This document shows, one piece after another, positions 14,246 through 43,250 of a DNA stretch of 43,250 nucleotides. The DNA lies in IMG/VR virus record IMGVR_UViG_3300025645_000143, positions 1 through 43,250 of that record. One strand, given 5' to 3'. The number at the start of each line of letters is the position of its first letter. Position 1 is the stretch's first letter. The translations under genes and the position numbers were made by a program. The notes under the pieces are model-generated. The model was not told the origin of the DNA. It searched no databases and worked only from the letters and a program-made list of their open reading frames with translations. The stretch comes from a virus.

Positions 14246-14277
14246 AAGCCCACCCTGCACAGGGCAAAGGTGGGCTT
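14246..14277 (-). terminator. Rho-independent terminator after the capsid gene
   Basis: AAGCCCACC (14246-14254) pairs with GGTGGGCTT (14269-14277) over a 14-base loop. On the minus strand the 3' arm runs into TTTTTAATT. It lies 19 bases after the capsid stop, so partial readthrough would supply the connector and tail genes while capsid mRNA stays abundant. Confidence 0.85.
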
Positions 14278-25746: not shown

Positions 25747-25799
25747 GACGGGTGGCACTTGGTGAGGTTAACGGTAGTTGGGGCGATCAGGACGGGTTG
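25747..25799. repeat. 53-base direct repeat, copy 1
   Basis: It is identical to 27598-27650. Here it overlaps the stop codon region of the PAPS-reductase-like gene (last codons AAC CCG TCC TGA), while the other copy covers the natural end of the 80-aa gene in a different frame. This suggests recombination between the two sites or a duplicated gene end. Confidence 0.92.
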
Positions 25800-26915: not shown

Positions 26916-27305
26916 TTAGATTTGCGAGGCAGACGCAACCGCCTTGTTTTCGATAATTGCTTTTTCTGACTCGGAGAATTTGAAAAATGTCCGCCCGCCG
27001 TCCTTTTCCCAAAGGTCAACTTTTGCCATGGATGTTATGAAAACATCACCTTTTGCGTTTAGCACAAAATTAGCCTCATTTCCAACTCTGACGTATTTGT
27101 AAGCCCGTGCCACTGGCGAGGATGACTCCATCATTCCAGTGATGCCTTTCATTTCGGCCAGGGTGAACCACTGAGAGAGATGTTTTCTGATCTTCTCCGC
27201 AACAGTGGCGATCTGTGGCCCTGTGAAAACGTGCGAGTCTGCCCGTCCATTGATGGAGTCGAGAGTTTCGTTCAGTTTCTTGTAATTGTTCGATTTGATT
27301 TTCAT
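26916..27305 (-). CDS. Hypothetical protein
   Basis: The 129-aa protein has a central region QWFTLAEMKGITGMMESSSP and ARAYKYVRVGNEANFVLNAK that could be a small winged-helix-like fold. It ends 5 bases before the DnaA-like start. It shares its leader sequence (23 bases, 27311-27333 versus 27570-27592) with the 76-aa gene. No family is identified. Confidence 0.65.
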   Translation of the reverse strand: MKIKSNNYKKLNETLDSINGRADSHVFTGPQIATVAEKIRKHLSQWFTLAEMKGITGMMESSSPVARAYKYVRVGNEANFVLNAKGDVFITSMAKVDLWEKDGGRTFFKFSESEKAIIENKAVASASQI

Positions 27306-27326
27306 TTTGTTTTTTAGTTAGAATTT

Positions 27327-27346
27327 ACCCGTATTAAGTGACGTGT
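27327..27346. repeat. Intergenic inverted repeat ACCCGT-N8-ACGTGT
   Basis: It is one of three related small hairpins; the others are ACCCGT-N7-ACGGGT at 27586-27604 and CCCGT-N8-ACGGG at 25735-25752. Here the stop codon of the 76-aa gene lies in the loop. They mark junctions between small gene cassettes. Confidence 0.6.
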
Positions 27347-27564
27347 GGCTTGCCAAGGGAGAGAGATTCAATCTTTGCGTCCAGCCCCCAGCTTGATAGG
27401 AGGTGCTGATGCTGGCGGGCTGACTCTGGAGTCATGTGCAGTGCATTGGCGCGACTGACTGTCACAGGCCTTTTCCCGCTCATTGTGCCGCCGAAATAGC
27501 GGCCATTACCCAGATTGAGGATTTGCGTTCTGGCCGCTCGTTTTGCTTTCGTTATATTTTTCAT
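27334..27564 (-). CDS. Small basic hypothetical protein
   Basis: The 76-aa protein is basic at the N-terminus (KNITKAKRAARTQILNLGNG) with RPVTVSRANALHMTPESARQ following. It has a leader nearly identical to that of the 129-aa gene downstream. Possibly a small nucleic-acid binding protein. No family is recognised. Confidence 0.6.
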   Translation of the reverse strand: MKNITKAKRAARTQILNLGNGRYFGGTMSGKRPVTVSRANALHMTPESARQHQHLLSSWGLDAKIESLSLGKPHVT

Positions 27565-27597
27565 TGCTTTTTTTAGTTAGAATTTACCCGTAGATGT

Positions 27598-27650
27598 GAC
27601 GGGTGGCACTTGGTGAGGTTAACGGTAGTTGGGGCGATCAGGACGGGTTG
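27598..27650. repeat. 53-base direct repeat, copy 2
   Basis: Identical to 25747-25799. It covers the last codons of the 80-aa gene (ending RPDRPNYR, stop TAA) and the downstream spacer. Since it is in frame with a natural gene end here, this copy is likely the source. Confidence 0.92.
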
Positions 27651-35124: not shown

Positions 35125-36809
35125 CCCCAAGAGACTATCAGATCGAAGCAATTGATTCTCTTTTTTCCTACTGGGCAGAGCATACGGGAAACCCTGTCAT
35201 CTGTCAGCCCACAGGCACCGGGAAAAGTATTGTGATCGCTGGCTTCTGCTGTAAGGCCTTGAAGCAGTTCCCATTCACAAGAATTCTTGTGCTTACTCAT
35301 GTGAAGGAATTGATTCAGCAGAATTATGAAAAACTCCTGGCAATGTGGCCACAAGCGCCAGCAGGGATCTATTCGGCAGGGTTGAAACGTAAAGACATTG
35401 GGAAAAATATCATCTTCGGCGGTATCGGTTCAGTCTGCAATAACGAGCAAAATTTTGGTCATGTCGATCTCATTCTTATTGATGAATGCCACACAGTCAG
35501 CCCGAAACAGCAAACGCAATATCGAAAGACAATTGCAAGACTCACAGAAGTGAATCCTTCTTTGAAAGTCGCAGGTCTAACAGCAACCCCTTATCGACTA
35601 GGCCAAGGTATGATTATTGAAGAGGACGGGATTTTCACAGACATCTGTTGTGAGCAAACAAGCCTCGAAAGATTCAATGAGTTTTTTGATGAGGGATATC
35701 TATGTCCACTTATCCCTCGCGCAACTGAAACCCAAATTGATACCTCAAAAGTCAAATTGACGGCAGGCGATTTTAATAAAAAGCAACTTGTTGAAGCTGT
35801 CGATAAGGAATCAATCACCCGTGCAGCAGTTGAAGAAATGATCAAATCTGGGAGAGATAGAAACAGTTGGTTGATCTTTGCGGCAGGTATTGAGCATACC
35901 GAACACATTGCAGAAATGTTGAATGAAAGCGGAATTGATGCTGTGGCAGTTCATTCAAAGAGCGGCGATGCTGTTAGGGATGAAGCAACGGCAGCTTTCA
36001 AAGCAGGCGATATTCGCGCACTTGTAAACAACGGAGTTTTCACAACAGGTTTCGATCATCCTGGCCTTGATTTGATAGGAGTTCTAAGGCCAACTCAATC
36101 GCCTGGTTTATGGGTTCAAATCTTAGGAAGAGGAACCCGCACCGATTACGCTCAAGGATTCGATCTATCAACAAAAGAAGGAAGACTAAGCGCGATTGCT
36201 GCCAGTCCAAAAAAGAATTGCTTAGTTCTCGATTTCGCAGGCAACACAAAACGACTTGGGCCAATTAATGACCCGCAGAAGCCGAAAAAAAGAGGGAAAG
36301 GACCACCAGGTGAGATGCCTGCAAAACTTTGCGAATGCGGAACTTTTAACTATTGCTCTGCTAGAGTTTGTGTCGCTTGCGGTAAGGCTTTTGAGATCTC
36401 TGTGAAGTTTGGCTCACAAGCTGGCAGCGATGCTTTGATCGCCAAGCTGGGAGCATCTGAAACAGAGGATCAACCTGTGACAGAATGGTTTGATGTTGAA
36501 AATACAACCTATTCAAAATTCACTCCTTGGAATAGAAGGCCAACTCTCAGAGGATTAAAAGCTTCCAATCTTAGAGTGGCATATAATTGCGGCTTACGAT
36601 CATTTTCCGAACACATTCGGCTTGAGCAAGACAAGTGCAAACCTTTCGCTAGAAGATGGTGGAATGATTCTTGCGAGGATGAAACGCCTTTGCCTGAGAC
36701 AGTTGATGAAGCCTGCGCCTATTCTCCGAAACTGAAAGAAGTAAAAAGAATAAAGGTTTGGATCAATCGGAAACACCCAGAAATTTTACACAGAGAATTT
36801 AAAGAATGA
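35121..36809 (+). CDS. DEAD/H-box (SF2) helicase with C-terminal zinc ribbon
   Basis: The 562-aa protein has Q-motif-like RDYQIEAI, Walker A CQPTGTGKSIV (29-39), DECH (LILIDECHTV), motif III AGLTATPYRLG and motif VI QILGRGTRTDYA. After the helicase core there is a zinc ribbon CECG...CSARVCVACG near 390-415. Similar SF2 helicases occur in phage replication or recombination modules. It lies between the methyltransferase and Mom-like genes, all with ATGA couplings. Confidence 0.92.
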   Translation: MTPRDYQIEAIDSLFSYWAEHTGNPVICQPTGTGKSIVIAGFCCKALKQFPFTRILVLTHVKELIQQNYEKLLAMWPQAPAGIYSAGLKRKDIGKNIIFGGIGSVCNNEQNFGHVDLILIDECHTVSPKQQTQYRKTIARLTEVNPSLKVAGLTATPYRLGQGMIIEEDGIFTDICCEQTSLERFNEFFDEGYLCPLIPRATETQIDTSKVKLTAGDFNKKQLVEAVDKESITRAAVEEMIKSGRDRNSWLIFAAGIEHTEHIAEMLNESGIDAVAVHSKSGDAVRDEATAAFKAGDIRALVNNGVFTTGFDHPGLDLIGVLRPTQSPGLWVQILGRGTRTDYAQGFDLSTKEGRLSAIAASPKKNCLVLDFAGNTKRLGPINDPQKPKKRGKGPPGEMPAKLCECGTFNYCSARVCVACGKAFEISVKFGSQAGSDALIAKLGASETEDQPVTEWFDVENTTYSKFTPWNRRPTLRGLKASNLRVAYNCGLRSFSEHIRLEQDKCKPFARRWWNDSCEDETPLPETVDEACAYSPKLKEVKRIKVWINRKHPEILHREFKE

Positions 36810-37654
36810 AAAAAGATTACACAGTCCGACAGATTACCCGGGCAGATTGTGAGCGATTCATCCTCCACATCCACTACGCGAAGCGATGGCCCAGTATCAG
36901 CTACGCTTATGGACTCTTCCATTGTGAAGACCTTGTTGGGTGCATCACCTATGGGTCTCCTGCAAGCCCTCCGGCACGCACTGGACTTGCAGGGCCAGAG
37001 ATGGCAAAACACGTCTTGGAACTCAACAGGCTTTGCCTTGGGGCAAACCTCAAAAATGAAGCAAGTTTCCTCATCTCCAAAAGTCTGAAACTTCTCCCAC
37101 CAGAAAGAATTATTCTGAGCTTCGCGGATAAATCCAAGGGGCACACCGGCACATTCTACCAAGCGGCAAATTTTCTCTACCTTGGCCTATCCGCTAAACG
37201 GACTGATTGGGCTATCAAAGGGAAAGAACACCTCCACGGTATCACAATCGCGGATGAGTTCCGAGGAGTCCCAAACCGTGCTGCCGCCGTTCGTGAGAAA
37301 TATGGAGATGACTTCTATCTGAAACCGAGACCCAGAAAACACCGATACATTTATCTTGTGGGTTCTAAAAAATGGAAGCGCGACACAAAGAAGCTTATCA
37401 GATACAAAGAAGAGAAATATCCAAAAACAAACAAAATGAAAAAAACACTTACAGAAGAACAACTAGAAAGCCTTGAGAACGTATTCCAAACAACTTTATC
37501 TTTGGCGATTGAGAAGATGGGCTTGAACAGATCTTGCCTTTCCTGCGCCAATTTTGACGAAGGAAAAGAGCTTTGCGACCTTGCAAACAAAAGGCCTCCA
37601 GCTCGCACCATCGTTGAAGGATGTGATTCATTCACGACCAACGAGCCTTTTTAA
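36806..37654 (+). CDS. mom: Mom-like DNA hypermodification protein fused to a C-terminal Cys module
   Basis: The 282-aa protein resembles phage Mu Mom, a GNAT-fold enzyme that converts adenine to N6-methylcarbamoyl adenine and blocks restriction. Visible traits: H23-Y24 in ILHIHYAKRWPS, LVGCITYGSP, HVLELNRLCLG and SFADKSKGHTGTFYQAANF (D108 and GHTG 112-115). Residues 211-282 form an extra domain with C244-x2-C247-x9-C257-x15-C273, absent from Mu Mom (231 aa). This domain begins with Met211, so it could have been a separate gene. It ends the ATGA-linked nuclease-methyltransferase-helicase run. No Com-like activator is seen. Confidence 0.85.
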   Translation: MKKDYTVRQITRADCERFILHIHYAKRWPSISYAYGLFHCEDLVGCITYGSPASPPARTGLAGPEMAKHVLELNRLCLGANLKNEASFLISKSLKLLPPERIILSFADKSKGHTGTFYQAANFLYLGLSAKRTDWAIKGKEHLHGITIADEFRGVPNRAAAVREKYGDDFYLKPRPRKHRYIYLVGSKKWKRDTKKLIRYKEEKYPKTNKMKKTLTEEQLESLENVFQTTLSLAIEKMGLNRSCLSCANFDEGKELCDLANKRPPARTIVEGCDSFTTNEPF

Positions 37655-37693
37655 TTTGACCTATGGCAACATATATGAAAGAAATCACCTGAC

Positions 37694-38005
37694 ATGAAAA
37701 AGGAAAAAGAACGAAAGCTTAAGAATGGTGTTTTGCATCCTGCTGAAAAATCTATCTCTGGCGAGCTATGGCTCGTCGCTGACAAGCTCAAGAAACGTCT
37801 GCGCAGGAATCCTGCGAGATTTGAATTCAGGGCAGCAGTTGCGAAAGAGAAAAGAGATTTCAACCATGAGAGCGTTTCTTATCAATGGTTTTTATGGAGG
37901 AAATTTCACGGCATTATAGGCCACTCTTCAAATAGATATCCGAAAAGGGGAACCTTTAAACCATCTGCCAAAACTGTCGAAAGACTTAAGACAAAAAAGA
38001 AATAA
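37694..38005 (+). CDS. Basic hypothetical protein
   Basis: The 103-aa protein is strongly basic (MKKEKERKLKNGVLHPAEKS, ELWLVADKLKKRLRRNPARF, TVERLKTKKK) with SVSYQWFLWRKFHGIIGHSS in the middle. It may bind nucleic acid. It lies 39 bases after the Mom-like gene and before the structured polymerase leader. A CAACATATATG half-palindrome lies 16-26 bases upstream. No family is identified. Confidence 0.65.
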   Translation: MKKEKERKLKNGVLHPAEKSISGELWLVADKLKKRLRRNPARFEFRAAVAKEKRDFNHESVSYQWFLWRKFHGIIGHSSNRYPKRGTFKPSAKTVERLKTKKK

Positions 38006-38011
38006 CTTTTT

Positions 38012-38082
38012 CCCGCTTGTGAAAGTTGACTCAGGCCTGGCAGCTTGAGAAGAGAACCCAACCGAATCAAGCGGGATTTTTT
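38012..38082 (+). ncRNA. Structured leader RNA before the DNA polymerase gene (candidate attenuator)
   Basis: CCCGCTTG (38012-38019) pairs with CAAGCGGG (38068-38075), closing a 48-base region that holds an inner hairpin CTCAGGC (38030-38036) / GCTTGAG (38043-38049) with loop CTGGCA. The outer 3' arm is followed by A and six T (38077-38082), and ATG 38086 follows at once. This is the layout of a terminator/attenuator or a small cis-regulatory RNA. Its class is not recognised. Confidence 0.65.
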
Positions 38083-38085
38083 ACG

Positions 38086-40209
38086 ATGAAAAACATAATC
38101 AAATTTTTTGAATTGCAAATGAAGCAAGGCCTCTTTTGGGAGATGCCCGATATTTCAAAAAACGGGAAAACAAAACCACCTGATCCCGTATGGCTCGCTT
38201 CTGACTACCTGCCAGGACTTGAGGCAGCGAAAGCGTTTAACGTGCCTTTGATGTCCGACGATGAGATATTAAAAGCAGCAGCTAACAAAGAAGAGCTTGT
38301 CTGTGATATCGAAATTTATGGGAATTATTTTCTCTGTGCTTTCATGTCGATGGAAACTGGCAAGAGTGCATTTGTGGAAATGATCGGTGAAGCGCCGATG
38401 AGTGAGAGCGATTTGCAAAAACTCAATTGGATTCTTGGGAACTTCAAAATTATCACTTTTAACGGCATCAACTTCGATCTTCCCATCTTATCTCTTGCCG
38501 TGAAAAAAAGAGGTTGTCGGGAATTGAAACATGCTTGTGACATGATTATTCAGCAAGAGATCAAACCTAATCAGGTTTTAAAATCTCTCAAATGCGAGCT
38601 GTTGAAAATAGACCATATTGATCTTATACAAGTTGCGCCACTCGCAGGCTCATTGAAAATTTATGGGGGGCGCTTGCACGTTCCAAAAATGCAAGACCTT
38701 CCTTTTCCTCCAGAAATAGATCTTTCGCCAGATCAGATTTCAATCATGCGATTTTATTGCATCAACGATCTTACCACAACAGCATTTCTCAATGCTAATC
38801 TGAAAGATCAAATTGCAATCAGAGTTTCGATGTCGGCAAAATATGGCATTGATCTCAGATCAAAATCAGATGCGCAAATAGCCGAAGCAGTTATCAAAAA
38901 CGAGATTAAGAATCTTACAGGGGTCGAACCGAAAAGACCTTCGATTCCAGAAGGAACTTCTTTTAGATATACAGCGCCCAGCTTTGTAAAATTTGAAATG
39001 CCTGTTTTGAAAGATCTATTGCAAAAGGTTCTTTGTGGTGATTTTGTGATATCTGAAAAAGGTTCCGTCATCACCCCCGCAACTTTGAGAGATGGCGATA
39101 AACCTTTGCATGTCAAAGTAGGAAAGATGTCGTACAAAGTAGGGATTGGCGGTCTGCACTCGACTGAAGAAGTCACTAGCCACAAAGTCACGCCAGATTT
39201 CAAACTGGCAGATCGTGACGTTGCTTCATATTACCCCATGGTAATTTTGAATCAGCAACTTTACCCCAAGCACCTTGGAACGCATTTCTTGCAGGTTTAC
39301 GAAACACTTGTGAAGACACGTTTAGCTGCGAAAAGGAGAGCGCAAGAAATATCCGTTGAGATTGAATCTTTGAAAAAGCTTTTCAAAATGAACAAAGCTG
39401 AAATAGAACAGAAAATAAAAGATCTTGAGAAAGAGAGGCATCAATGTTCCGTTCTTGCAGATTCAAAAAAAATTGAAATCAACGGAAGCTTTGGAAAGCT
39501 GGGGTCAAAGTGGTCTTTTCTCTATGCTCCCGATCTGATGATTCAAGTAACTGTGACGGGTCAATTGGCGCTCTTGATGCTCATTGAACGTCTTGAGCTT
39601 GCAGGCGTTGAAGTAGTGAGCGCAAACACCGATGGGATCGTCTTCAAGCATCCTCGCATCATGCAAGATGTGATTGATCAAGTGGTCGCCCAATGGGAAG
39701 AAGATACAAGTTTTGAAACTGAAGAAACTGAATATTCTGCTTTGTATAGTCGCGACGTGAACAACTACATTGCAGTGAAACCCAACGGCAAGACCAAAAC
39801 CAAAGGAGCGTATTCGAACCCCTGGAACGATCCTTACGCCGCAATTTTCCGATTCCACAAGAACCCTACAAATTCAATTTGCGTTGAAGCTGTGACCGAA
39901 TATCTCACAAAAGGAATTCCGATATCTGACACAATCAACGCTTGCAGAGATCTTGCGAAATTCCTCACAGTGCGAGCTGTTAAAGGTGGCGCTGTAAAAG
40001 ATGGAATCTTTTTGGGCAAAGCGATTCGTTGGTATTATTCGAAGAACGCAGGTGGAATTATCATTTACGCCAAGAGTGGAAACAAGGTTCCAAAATCCGA
40101 TGATGCAAGACCTTGCATGGAAATGCCTGATTCCTTTCCTATAGATCTCGACTTTGATAGATATGAGATGGAATCGAGTGAGATTCTAAAAGACATCGGA
40201 GCAATTTAA
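38086..40209 (+). CDS. Compact family-B-like DNA polymerase with 3'-5' exonuclease
   Basis: From ATG 38086 the product is 707 aa; a TTG start at 38026 would lie inside the structured leader. The exonuclease has CDIEIYG (D74, E76), FNGINFDLPIL (N126, D131) and FYCINDLTTT (Y224, D228). The polymerase has motif A DRDVASYYPMVIL (D378), a motif-B region KKIEINGSFGKLGS with coiled coil 418-455 ahead of it, and motif C SANTDGIVF (D516). The single Asp in motif C and the short length resemble compact phage PolB-like enzymes. It is the replicative polymerase of the phage, with the PrimPol helicase coded on the other strand. Confidence 0.88.
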   Translation: MKNIIKFFELQMKQGLFWEMPDISKNGKTKPPDPVWLASDYLPGLEAAKAFNVPLMSDDEILKAAANKEELVCDIEIYGNYFLCAFMSMETGKSAFVEMIGEAPMSESDLQKLNWILGNFKIITFNGINFDLPILSLAVKKRGCRELKHACDMIIQQEIKPNQVLKSLKCELLKIDHIDLIQVAPLAGSLKIYGGRLHVPKMQDLPFPPEIDLSPDQISIMRFYCINDLTTTAFLNANLKDQIAIRVSMSAKYGIDLRSKSDAQIAEAVIKNEIKNLTGVEPKRPSIPEGTSFRYTAPSFVKFEMPVLKDLLQKVLCGDFVISEKGSVITPATLRDGDKPLHVKVGKMSYKVGIGGLHSTEEVTSHKVTPDFKLADRDVASYYPMVILNQQLYPKHLGTHFLQVYETLVKTRLAAKRRAQEISVEIESLKKLFKMNKAEIEQKIKDLEKERHQCSVLADSKKIEINGSFGKLGSKWSFLYAPDLMIQVTVTGQLALLMLIERLELAGVEVVSANTDGIVFKHPRIMQDVIDQVVAQWEEDTSFETEETEYSALYSRDVNNYIAVKPNGKTKTKGAYSNPWNDPYAAIFRFHKNPTNSICVEAVTEYLTKGIPISDTINACRDLAKFLTVRAVKGGAVKDGIFLGKAIRWYYSKNAGGIIIYAKSGNKVPKSDDARPCMEMPDSFPIDLDFDRYEMESSEILKDIGAI

Positions 40210-42277: not shown

Positions 42278-43250
42278 TTAATAGATAAGTTTGTTTCCTG
42301 AGTTGGTCAAATCGTTGGAAGCATCGTCAATGAGATCAGTTTGGGTTCCTTCGATGAAGTATTCGGTTGTGGTCAGAATCTCATCTGTCCAAACGTCAAT
42401 TTCAGCAACGTGCCAATACACTGAAGGCGTGTTTCCTCTGCTGTTTTTATCAATTTGAATGTAAAGCTCTGGCTCAGTTCCTTGGTAAAATAAGTATGCT
42501 GGCGCAGGTGTGAATGATTCATTGTTTTTCCACAATCTGAAGTATTTGTGATCTGCTTCAATTGCCGGACTCCATGAAAGATACCATGTTTCATATCCTG
42601 TGCCAAATGCCCCGCCGGAGTCTGAGTCATCAAATTGGATTGCTCCCGCTGATACAATTTGAGGGATTGGATTGCTTGCCGCTAGAGCTGTGGGAGTTTC
42701 GCTGTTCCCAATATCATTGCATGCCACAACATCAAAAGTGAAATCCCGATCATCAGCACCGTCAGAGTTTGCATCCTCTGCGTTGTAAATATAAGTCAGA
42801 GCGGATGTTGTGATTTCGCGAAGTGGCGCAATGACTTGAGGGATTGCAATATCGGAAGTTCTATAAATTTTGACTTTGTATTCGGTTGCTGATGCAACTG
42901 CATTCCAAGAAAAATCAAGATATGATCCGATGAATGGATCAACAAGAGCGAGGTTTTGCACATTGCCTGGAGGAGAAGTCGCAGCTCCCACAGTGCCTGA
43001 CCAAGATACAAAAGGACCAATGCCGATATTAACGGCAGCGACTCGCACATAGAGAGTGCCAGGAACCACTGGCAGAGTGTAATTTGTCCTTGTGACGTTA
43101 TCAACTTGTGACCAGATAACGCCGTCTGTCGATTGCTCCAATATATAAGAGAGAGCGCCATAGGCAGGTTCCCACAAGACCGAAACAAATTCTGTGATAT
43201 TTGGAATTGGGAAAACTTCGATTGAAGAGACTACGGGCGCATCAGGTATA
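42278..43250 (-). CDS. gpJ-like tail-tip protein, C-terminal part (continues from window start)
   Basis: The frame runs from the window end to a TAA at 42278 and is the C-terminal 299-324 residues of the protein that begins at 2551. It shows at least two fibronectin-III-like repeats (TDGVIWSQVDNVTRTNYTLP, VAAVNIGIGPFVSW; NLALVDPFIGSYLDFSWNAV). The apparent ATG at 43177 is internal, not a true start. The far C-terminus is the likely receptor-contact region. This right-hand copy keeps the frame across the terminal repeat. Confidence 0.9.
   Translation of the reverse strand, partial: IPDAPVVSSIEVFPIPNITEFVSVLWEPAYGALSYILEQSTDGVIWSQVDNVTRTNYTLPVVPGTLYVRVAAVNIGIGPFVSWSGTVGAATSPPGNVQNLALVDPFIGSYLDFSWNAVASATEYKVKIYRTSDIAIPQVIAPLREITTSALTYIYNAEDANSDGADDRDFTFDVVACNDIGNSETPTALAASNPIPQIVSAGAIQFDDSDSGGAFGTGYETWYLSWSPAIEADHKYFRLWKNNESFTPAPAYLFYQGTEPELYIQIDKNSRGNTPSVYWHVAEIDVWTDEILTTTEYFIEGTQTDLIDDASNDLTNSGNKLIY
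43110..43250. repeat. Terminal direct repeat, right copy (assembly overlap)
   Basis: These 141 bases match 1-140 except for one extra G (the run GCCGTCTG here against GCCTCTG at the left end). This copy keeps the gpJ frame, so the left copy probably holds a sequencing or assembly error. Confidence 0.93.

Follow-up and report, generated by a model that had tools for sequence, protein, structure and literature searches.

In phages T4 and RB69, the family-B DNA polymerase gp43 is regulated through an autogenous translational operator upstream of gene 43, consisting of a hairpin of 16–18 nt with a conserved UAAC-type loop, together with sequence over the ribosome-binding site (PMC3014915). Rho-independent terminators and intercistronic attenuators are built from a stable GC-rich stem with a short loop and a U-tract directly 3′ of the stem. 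The terminators mapped by Term-seq have a median loop of 4, and the TransTermHP criteria allow loops of up to 13 and stem-loops of up to 59 (PMC12207403). At the λ tR2 terminator in E. coli, a stop codon 5 bp before the terminator lowers termination from ~90% to <10%, and this masking is gone when the distance between stop codon and terminator exceeds 27 nt (PMC4824070).

The locus studied here is part of the 43,250-base IMG/VR virus genome IMGVR_UViG_3300025645_000143, the whole of which is referred to as the window. A terminal direct repeat of 126 nt (15-140 and 43125-43250) suggests that the genome is complete. Upstream of the polymerase gene the plus strand encodes a Cas4-type exonuclease, a DNA methyltransferase, a helicase, a Mom-like protein and a small, DNA-binding-like protein of 103 aa with a phrog_18634-like domain (37694..38005, stop codon TAA at 38003-38005). 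The Mom-like DNA modification protein (36806-37654) carries a C-terminal fusion to a small cysteine-containing domain (phrog_23504), which in relatives is a separate gene of 74–79 aa. The family-B DNA polymerase (phrog_1252, E 4.7e-199 when scanned from 38086) is encoded on the plus strand at 38119..40209, and its nearest counterparts in named phages, those of Queuovirinae and similar phages, are ~50% identical. An ATG at 38086..38088 is a possible start, adding the 11 residues MKNIIKFFELQ; because homologues lack this extension, the ATG at 38119..38121 is preferred, from which the protein begins MKQGLFW, in line with MELQGLFW and MRADALGLFW of the homologues. Gene starts in the window are mostly without a Shine-Dalgarno (SD) sequence and A-rich, with 62% A at position −3, a pattern reminiscent of Bacteroidota (PMC6847099). 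The plus strand from ~37505 to 38119 contains no sigma-70-like or TAnnTTTG promoter site, a sigma-70 promoter from TTGACT at 38027 having been dropped for want of a −10 element.

Some further features of the window lie outside this region. The segment 24165-24285 has strong non-coding structure (z −4.5 on the plus strand), including a 16-bp inverted repeat, CCTAGAGCCATATAGG..CCTATATGGCTCTAGG, of which the 5′ arm overlaps a 10-bp hairpin, GGCTGTATCC..GGATACAGCC, so that the two folds are mutually exclusive; it may function as an origin or as a regulatory RNA. An exact direct repeat of 53 nt is found at 25747-25799 and 27598-27650, 1.85 kb apart, and near-identical leaders (84%, GGGTAAATTCTAACTAAAAAA) at 27289-27333 and 27548-27592 precede two adjacent minus-strand genes.

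The element between the 103-aa gene and the polymerase gene occupies positions 38011-38082 of the plus strand and is composed of TCCCGCTTG, 48 nt, CAAGCGGGA and TTTTTT, followed by ACG and the ATG at 38086. A sequence-only reading of the window had described an 8-bp outer stem, CCCGCTTG/CAAGCGGG, around a 7-bp inner hairpin. The outer stem is present and gains one more pair, T38011-A38076, giving 9 bp with 6 G-C pairs and arms at 38011..38019 and 38068..38076. The inner hairpin (38030..38049) is reproduced by the predicted fold, with CTCAGGC (38030-38036) pairing to GCTTGAG (38043-38049), including one G-U, around the loop CUGGCA. In addition a weak 4-bp helix is predicted between GTTG (38025..38028) and CAAC (38059-38062), to which the relatives lend no support. 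The stem is separated from the stop codon by the 5-nt spacer CTTTT (38006..38010), and the six T residues noted earlier adjoin it at 38077..38082 (nT 4.28), where the predicted release or pause site is located; the ATG at 38086 follows the tract after three bases (ACG), not the four previously counted. The element totals 66 nt, and the inner hairpin brings the outer arms closer across the 48-nt insert. Identity as a tRNA or tmRNA was considered and dropped, as were a small ORF through the element, the frame being open from 38023 only, and sequestration of an SD sequence by the 3′ arm (GCGGGA), SD use being weak in this phage.

The predicted folding energy of the whole element is −24.7 kcal/mol (−24.7 to −25.5 kcal/mol across calculations), with a z-score of −3.06 and equally good folds in 3 of 200 shuffles. 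The insert alone (inner 50 nt) folds ordinarily, without significance (z −0.58; 53 of 200 shuffles), and the folding signal is therefore carried by the outer stem. Folding is as good on the minus strand of the element (z −3.64), where the 3′ arm lacks a following T-run, so that the choice of strand rests on the T-run and the gene direction. The exact outer stem with a loop of 20–50 nt occurs once in the window and in none of 100 shuffles. Terminator-like 8-bp stems (perfect stem, at least 5 G-C pairs, loop ≤60, T-run after) are found at three places in the 43 kb, 14247 (minus strand), 25405 (both strands) and 38012 (plus strand), as compared with a total of 5 across 15 shuffled windows, 2 of these having at least 6 G-C pairs. 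The hairpins at 14247 and 25405 suggest that the phage uses such signals.

Relatives were identified by alignment-based searches, among the matches listed, and a closer relative may exist; one of them, L118, is 81% identical over the polymerase C-terminus, in a record without upstream sequence. Homologues of the 103-aa protein with 45–51% identity are encoded in L095, L096, L253, L254 and L394, the closest among the matches listed that have the region sequenced. All five contain a strong hairpin between the 103-aa homologue and the gene of the sliding clamp (processivity clamp), with stems of 15 bp in L253, L254 and L095, 12 bp in L096 and 11–12 bp in L394. Elsewhere in these loci, stems of 11 bp or more number 7 in ~50 kb, which corresponds to ~0.1 expected in the five gaps (~870 nt) where five are seen. 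The distance from stop codon to stem is 18, 25, 37, 41 or 181 nt in the relatives and 5 nt in the window. The sequence GGAACC, present in the hairpins of all five, was dropped as a defining loop motif, as it is above simple expectation elsewhere too, including before starts. At 298-339 of L256, on the same contig as L253, a strong 12-bp hairpin is followed by TTTT and shortly after by an ATG, which suggests that intercistronic hairpins recur in this clade.

In the window no sliding-clamp gene was found, either by tblastn or with a clamp profile HMM on six-frame translations, and it is because of this absence that the hairpin abuts the polymerase gene; presumably a clamp gene once present was lost. 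Across these genomes the hairpin stays behind the upstream gene and meets the polymerase gene only where a clamp gene is missing. The clamp gene is followed in L253 by a methyltransferase gene and in L254 by a gene for a family-A polymerase (PF00476; 5515-7551), which starts with the similar motif MRKDALGLLW, as if polymerases had been swapped behind the same clamp. The N-terminal QGLFW of the window polymerase appears to resemble clamp-binding motifs, and its retention in a genome where no clamp was found suggests that the clamp of the host is used.

In three of the relatives the hairpin is a conserved RNA, here called R1, of 77 nt and 27 consensus pairs (L095, 915-991; L253, 4675-4751; L254, 4341-4417), located between the 103-aa homologue and the clamp gene, with a small ORF intervening in L095. 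R1 has a 15-bp outer stem and the conserved inner sequence CCATTGC..GGGACAWGTAAGG..GGAACCGGGAACC, and its copies are 80–90% identical, versus 65–78% for the adjacent clamp DNA. Pairing is found in 98.8% of cells, compared with 33–61% in slid controls, which show no double change. Three pairs are changed on both sides, one inner pair being U-A, G-C and C-G, and the covariation score is reached by 7 of 500 shuffles; coming from three sequences, this covariation is supportive, not conclusive. Two other relatives, L096 and L394, score 22–24 bits locally against the R1 model, chiefly through the outer stem, and are unreported in a whole-record search. R1 has no Rfam match in the relatives' loci (one sub-threshold match lies elsewhere on L254) and no match among named phages, while plasmids give only weak partial matches; it is an undescribed RNA element, new here. 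In a pattern scan of IMG/VR it was found only in the records of L095, L253 and L254, in one copy each, the weaker opposite-strand second match in each record being the same palindrome. The pattern applied to the genome collection lacked specificity, giving scattered chance matches.

We somewhat favour the interpretation, drawn from sequence and predicted folds, that the window element, lying between two cistrons at the 3′ end of the 103-aa gene, is an attenuator resembling an intrinsic terminator and acting on the plus strand of the replication operon. RNA polymerase would copy the 9-bp stem and T6, the hairpin would fold, and some transcripts would end near 38077-38083, so that fewer would extend into the polymerase gene. 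Because there is no promoter-like site between the element and the polymerase gene, read-through must occur, and the brake would be partial or conditional. With the stop codon only 5 nt before the stem, masking by ribosomes is expected: a ribosome finishing the 103-aa gene would cover the 5′ arm and RNA polymerase would pass, the brake thus acting mainly when the 103-aa gene is poorly translated. We infer termination itself, its partial nature and the masking from this arrangement; any such masking may be peculiar to this phage, given the gaps of 18–181 nt in the relatives. An attenuator had also been suggested by the sequence-only reading, and the anatomy fits (9-bp stem, T6, same-strand operon, no promoter between), termination being the predicted part of that claim. 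The GC-rich stem stands directly before a T6 on the coding strand only.

Terminator scores (d'Aubenton-type) vary widely between the genomes. The window element has a borderline score of −1.8, owing to the length of its hairpin, and the 48-nt insert may lower termination efficiency; the terminator rules of the host may differ from those used in this scoring. In L254, T5 directly follows the stem and the score is 24.0. The T-runs of L253, L095 and L394 lie a few nt beyond the stem, and the scores of L095 (−46.7), L096 (−49.3), L253 (−20.5) and L394 (−18.8) are poor, so that the hairpin in relatives may do something other than terminate.

These poor scores bear on the main rival to an attenuator, namely an mRNA processing or stabilising hairpin, whose stem would shield the upstream message at its 3′ end, or would stop exonucleases once the RNA has been cleaved. 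Such a hairpin would yield unequal amounts of the upstream and replisome proteins without true termination. In L095, L096, L253 and L394 the hairpin keeps its position despite a weak or displaced T-run, and with −24 to −44 kcal/mol the stems are highly stable, but in the window and in L254 the T-run directly adjoins the stem, in the manner of a terminator; we regard a processing role as rather unlikely, both in its protective function and as the source of unequal protein amounts. An autogenous translational operator of the polymerase, corresponding to the autoregulatory site as in T4 put forward in the sequence-only reading, is suggested by a hairpin just 5′ of a family-B polymerase start but appears very improbable. 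Related PolB genes were compared in roughly 115 distinct loci among the matches listed, none with a comparable T-tailed hairpin directly before the polymerase, and the hairpin of the relatives precedes the clamp gene instead, with a family-A polymerase after the clamp in L254; a link between hairpin and polymerase gene across relatives, as would be expected of an operator of the gp43 type, is thus not observed. Furthermore, few genes of this phage have SD sites, and the 66-nt element with its loop CUGGCA is unlike a 16–18 nt hairpin with a loop of the UAAC, CAAC or UAAA type. A riboswitch or other metabolite-sensing leader, also raised earlier, could be imagined from a terminator-like stem with a structured insert. 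Nothing in the window reached the gathering score in Rfam, however, and a relaxed threshold around the element gave chance-level snoRNA matches only; the fold of the insert is not significant, no alternative antiterminator pairing was identified, and metabolite sensing is extremely improbable. Inverted repeats are in themselves not rare, with about ten 9-bp stems with loops ≤70 in the window, but a T-run is present as well at only three places and the position is common to the relatives, which makes a chance repeat beside a T-run scarcely credible.

A different alternative links the window element to R1. Both lie after the 103-aa gene and before the gene that comes next in the replication operon, with inserts of 48 and 47 nt, respectively, and the same order of outer stem, inner hairpin, GAGAACC-like stretch, 3′ arm, T-run and ATG. 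R1 is itself conserved in sequence and structure, and at the stop codon 14 nt, AAGAAATAACTTTT, are common to the window and L254. Against this, the window element scores only 8.4 bits (E 1.9) with the R1 covariance model and ranks tenth of the weak matches in the window, a pairwise alignment with L254 has a score reached by 10 of 300 shuffles, the others being no better than chance, and the resemblance of GAGAACC to GGAACC is too short to carry weight. Searches with the leader DNA for similarity to phages gave chance matches only, and an exact scan of IMG/VR for the inner sequence found none. Covariation in homologous phages, the check proposed in the sequence-only reading, is seen for a same-site element in three relatives; it could not be shown for the window sequence, which the model does not recognise. 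Shared descent of the window element and R1 is plausible. That the element is a diverged R1 member of which the insert binds a protein, for instance the 103-aa protein or a clamp, and thereby controls translation of, or read-through into, the replisome genes, is quite unlikely. It is possible, though doubtful, that the element is a fast-diverging member of R1, that R1 controls the step from the DNA-binding-protein gene to those of the replisome across a clade of uncultured phages, and that clamp loss put the polymerase of this phage under this control.

The element resembles the gene 43 operators of T4 and RB69 in being a hairpin that precedes the gene of a phage family-B DNA polymerase, but it is much larger, has no UAAC-type loop, belongs to a phage with little SD use and is not linked to PolB in relatives. 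With R1 it has in common the site after a homologous upstream gene, the size of the insert, the layout and the T-run and ATG that follow, whereas R1 has a 15-bp outer stem and a conserved inner sequence, precedes the clamp gene and shows no detectable sequence match to it. Rho-independent terminators and intercistronic attenuators correspond to it in the GC-rich stem and immediate T-run, which follow a stop codon inside an operon. Such terminators have a short loop, while here a structured insert of 48 nt separates the outer arms in a 66-nt element, and for this reason we call the element terminator-like; its kind is ordinary, though the insert is unusual and the comparison with relatives makes the setting interesting. 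If the attenuator interpretation is right, the phage would have a simple means of setting replisome dose, with read-through by RNA polymerase coupled to translation of the 103-aa gene. Only 5 nt separate the stem from the stop codon, and at this spacing λ tR2 was suppressed when the preceding gene was translated (PMC4824070).
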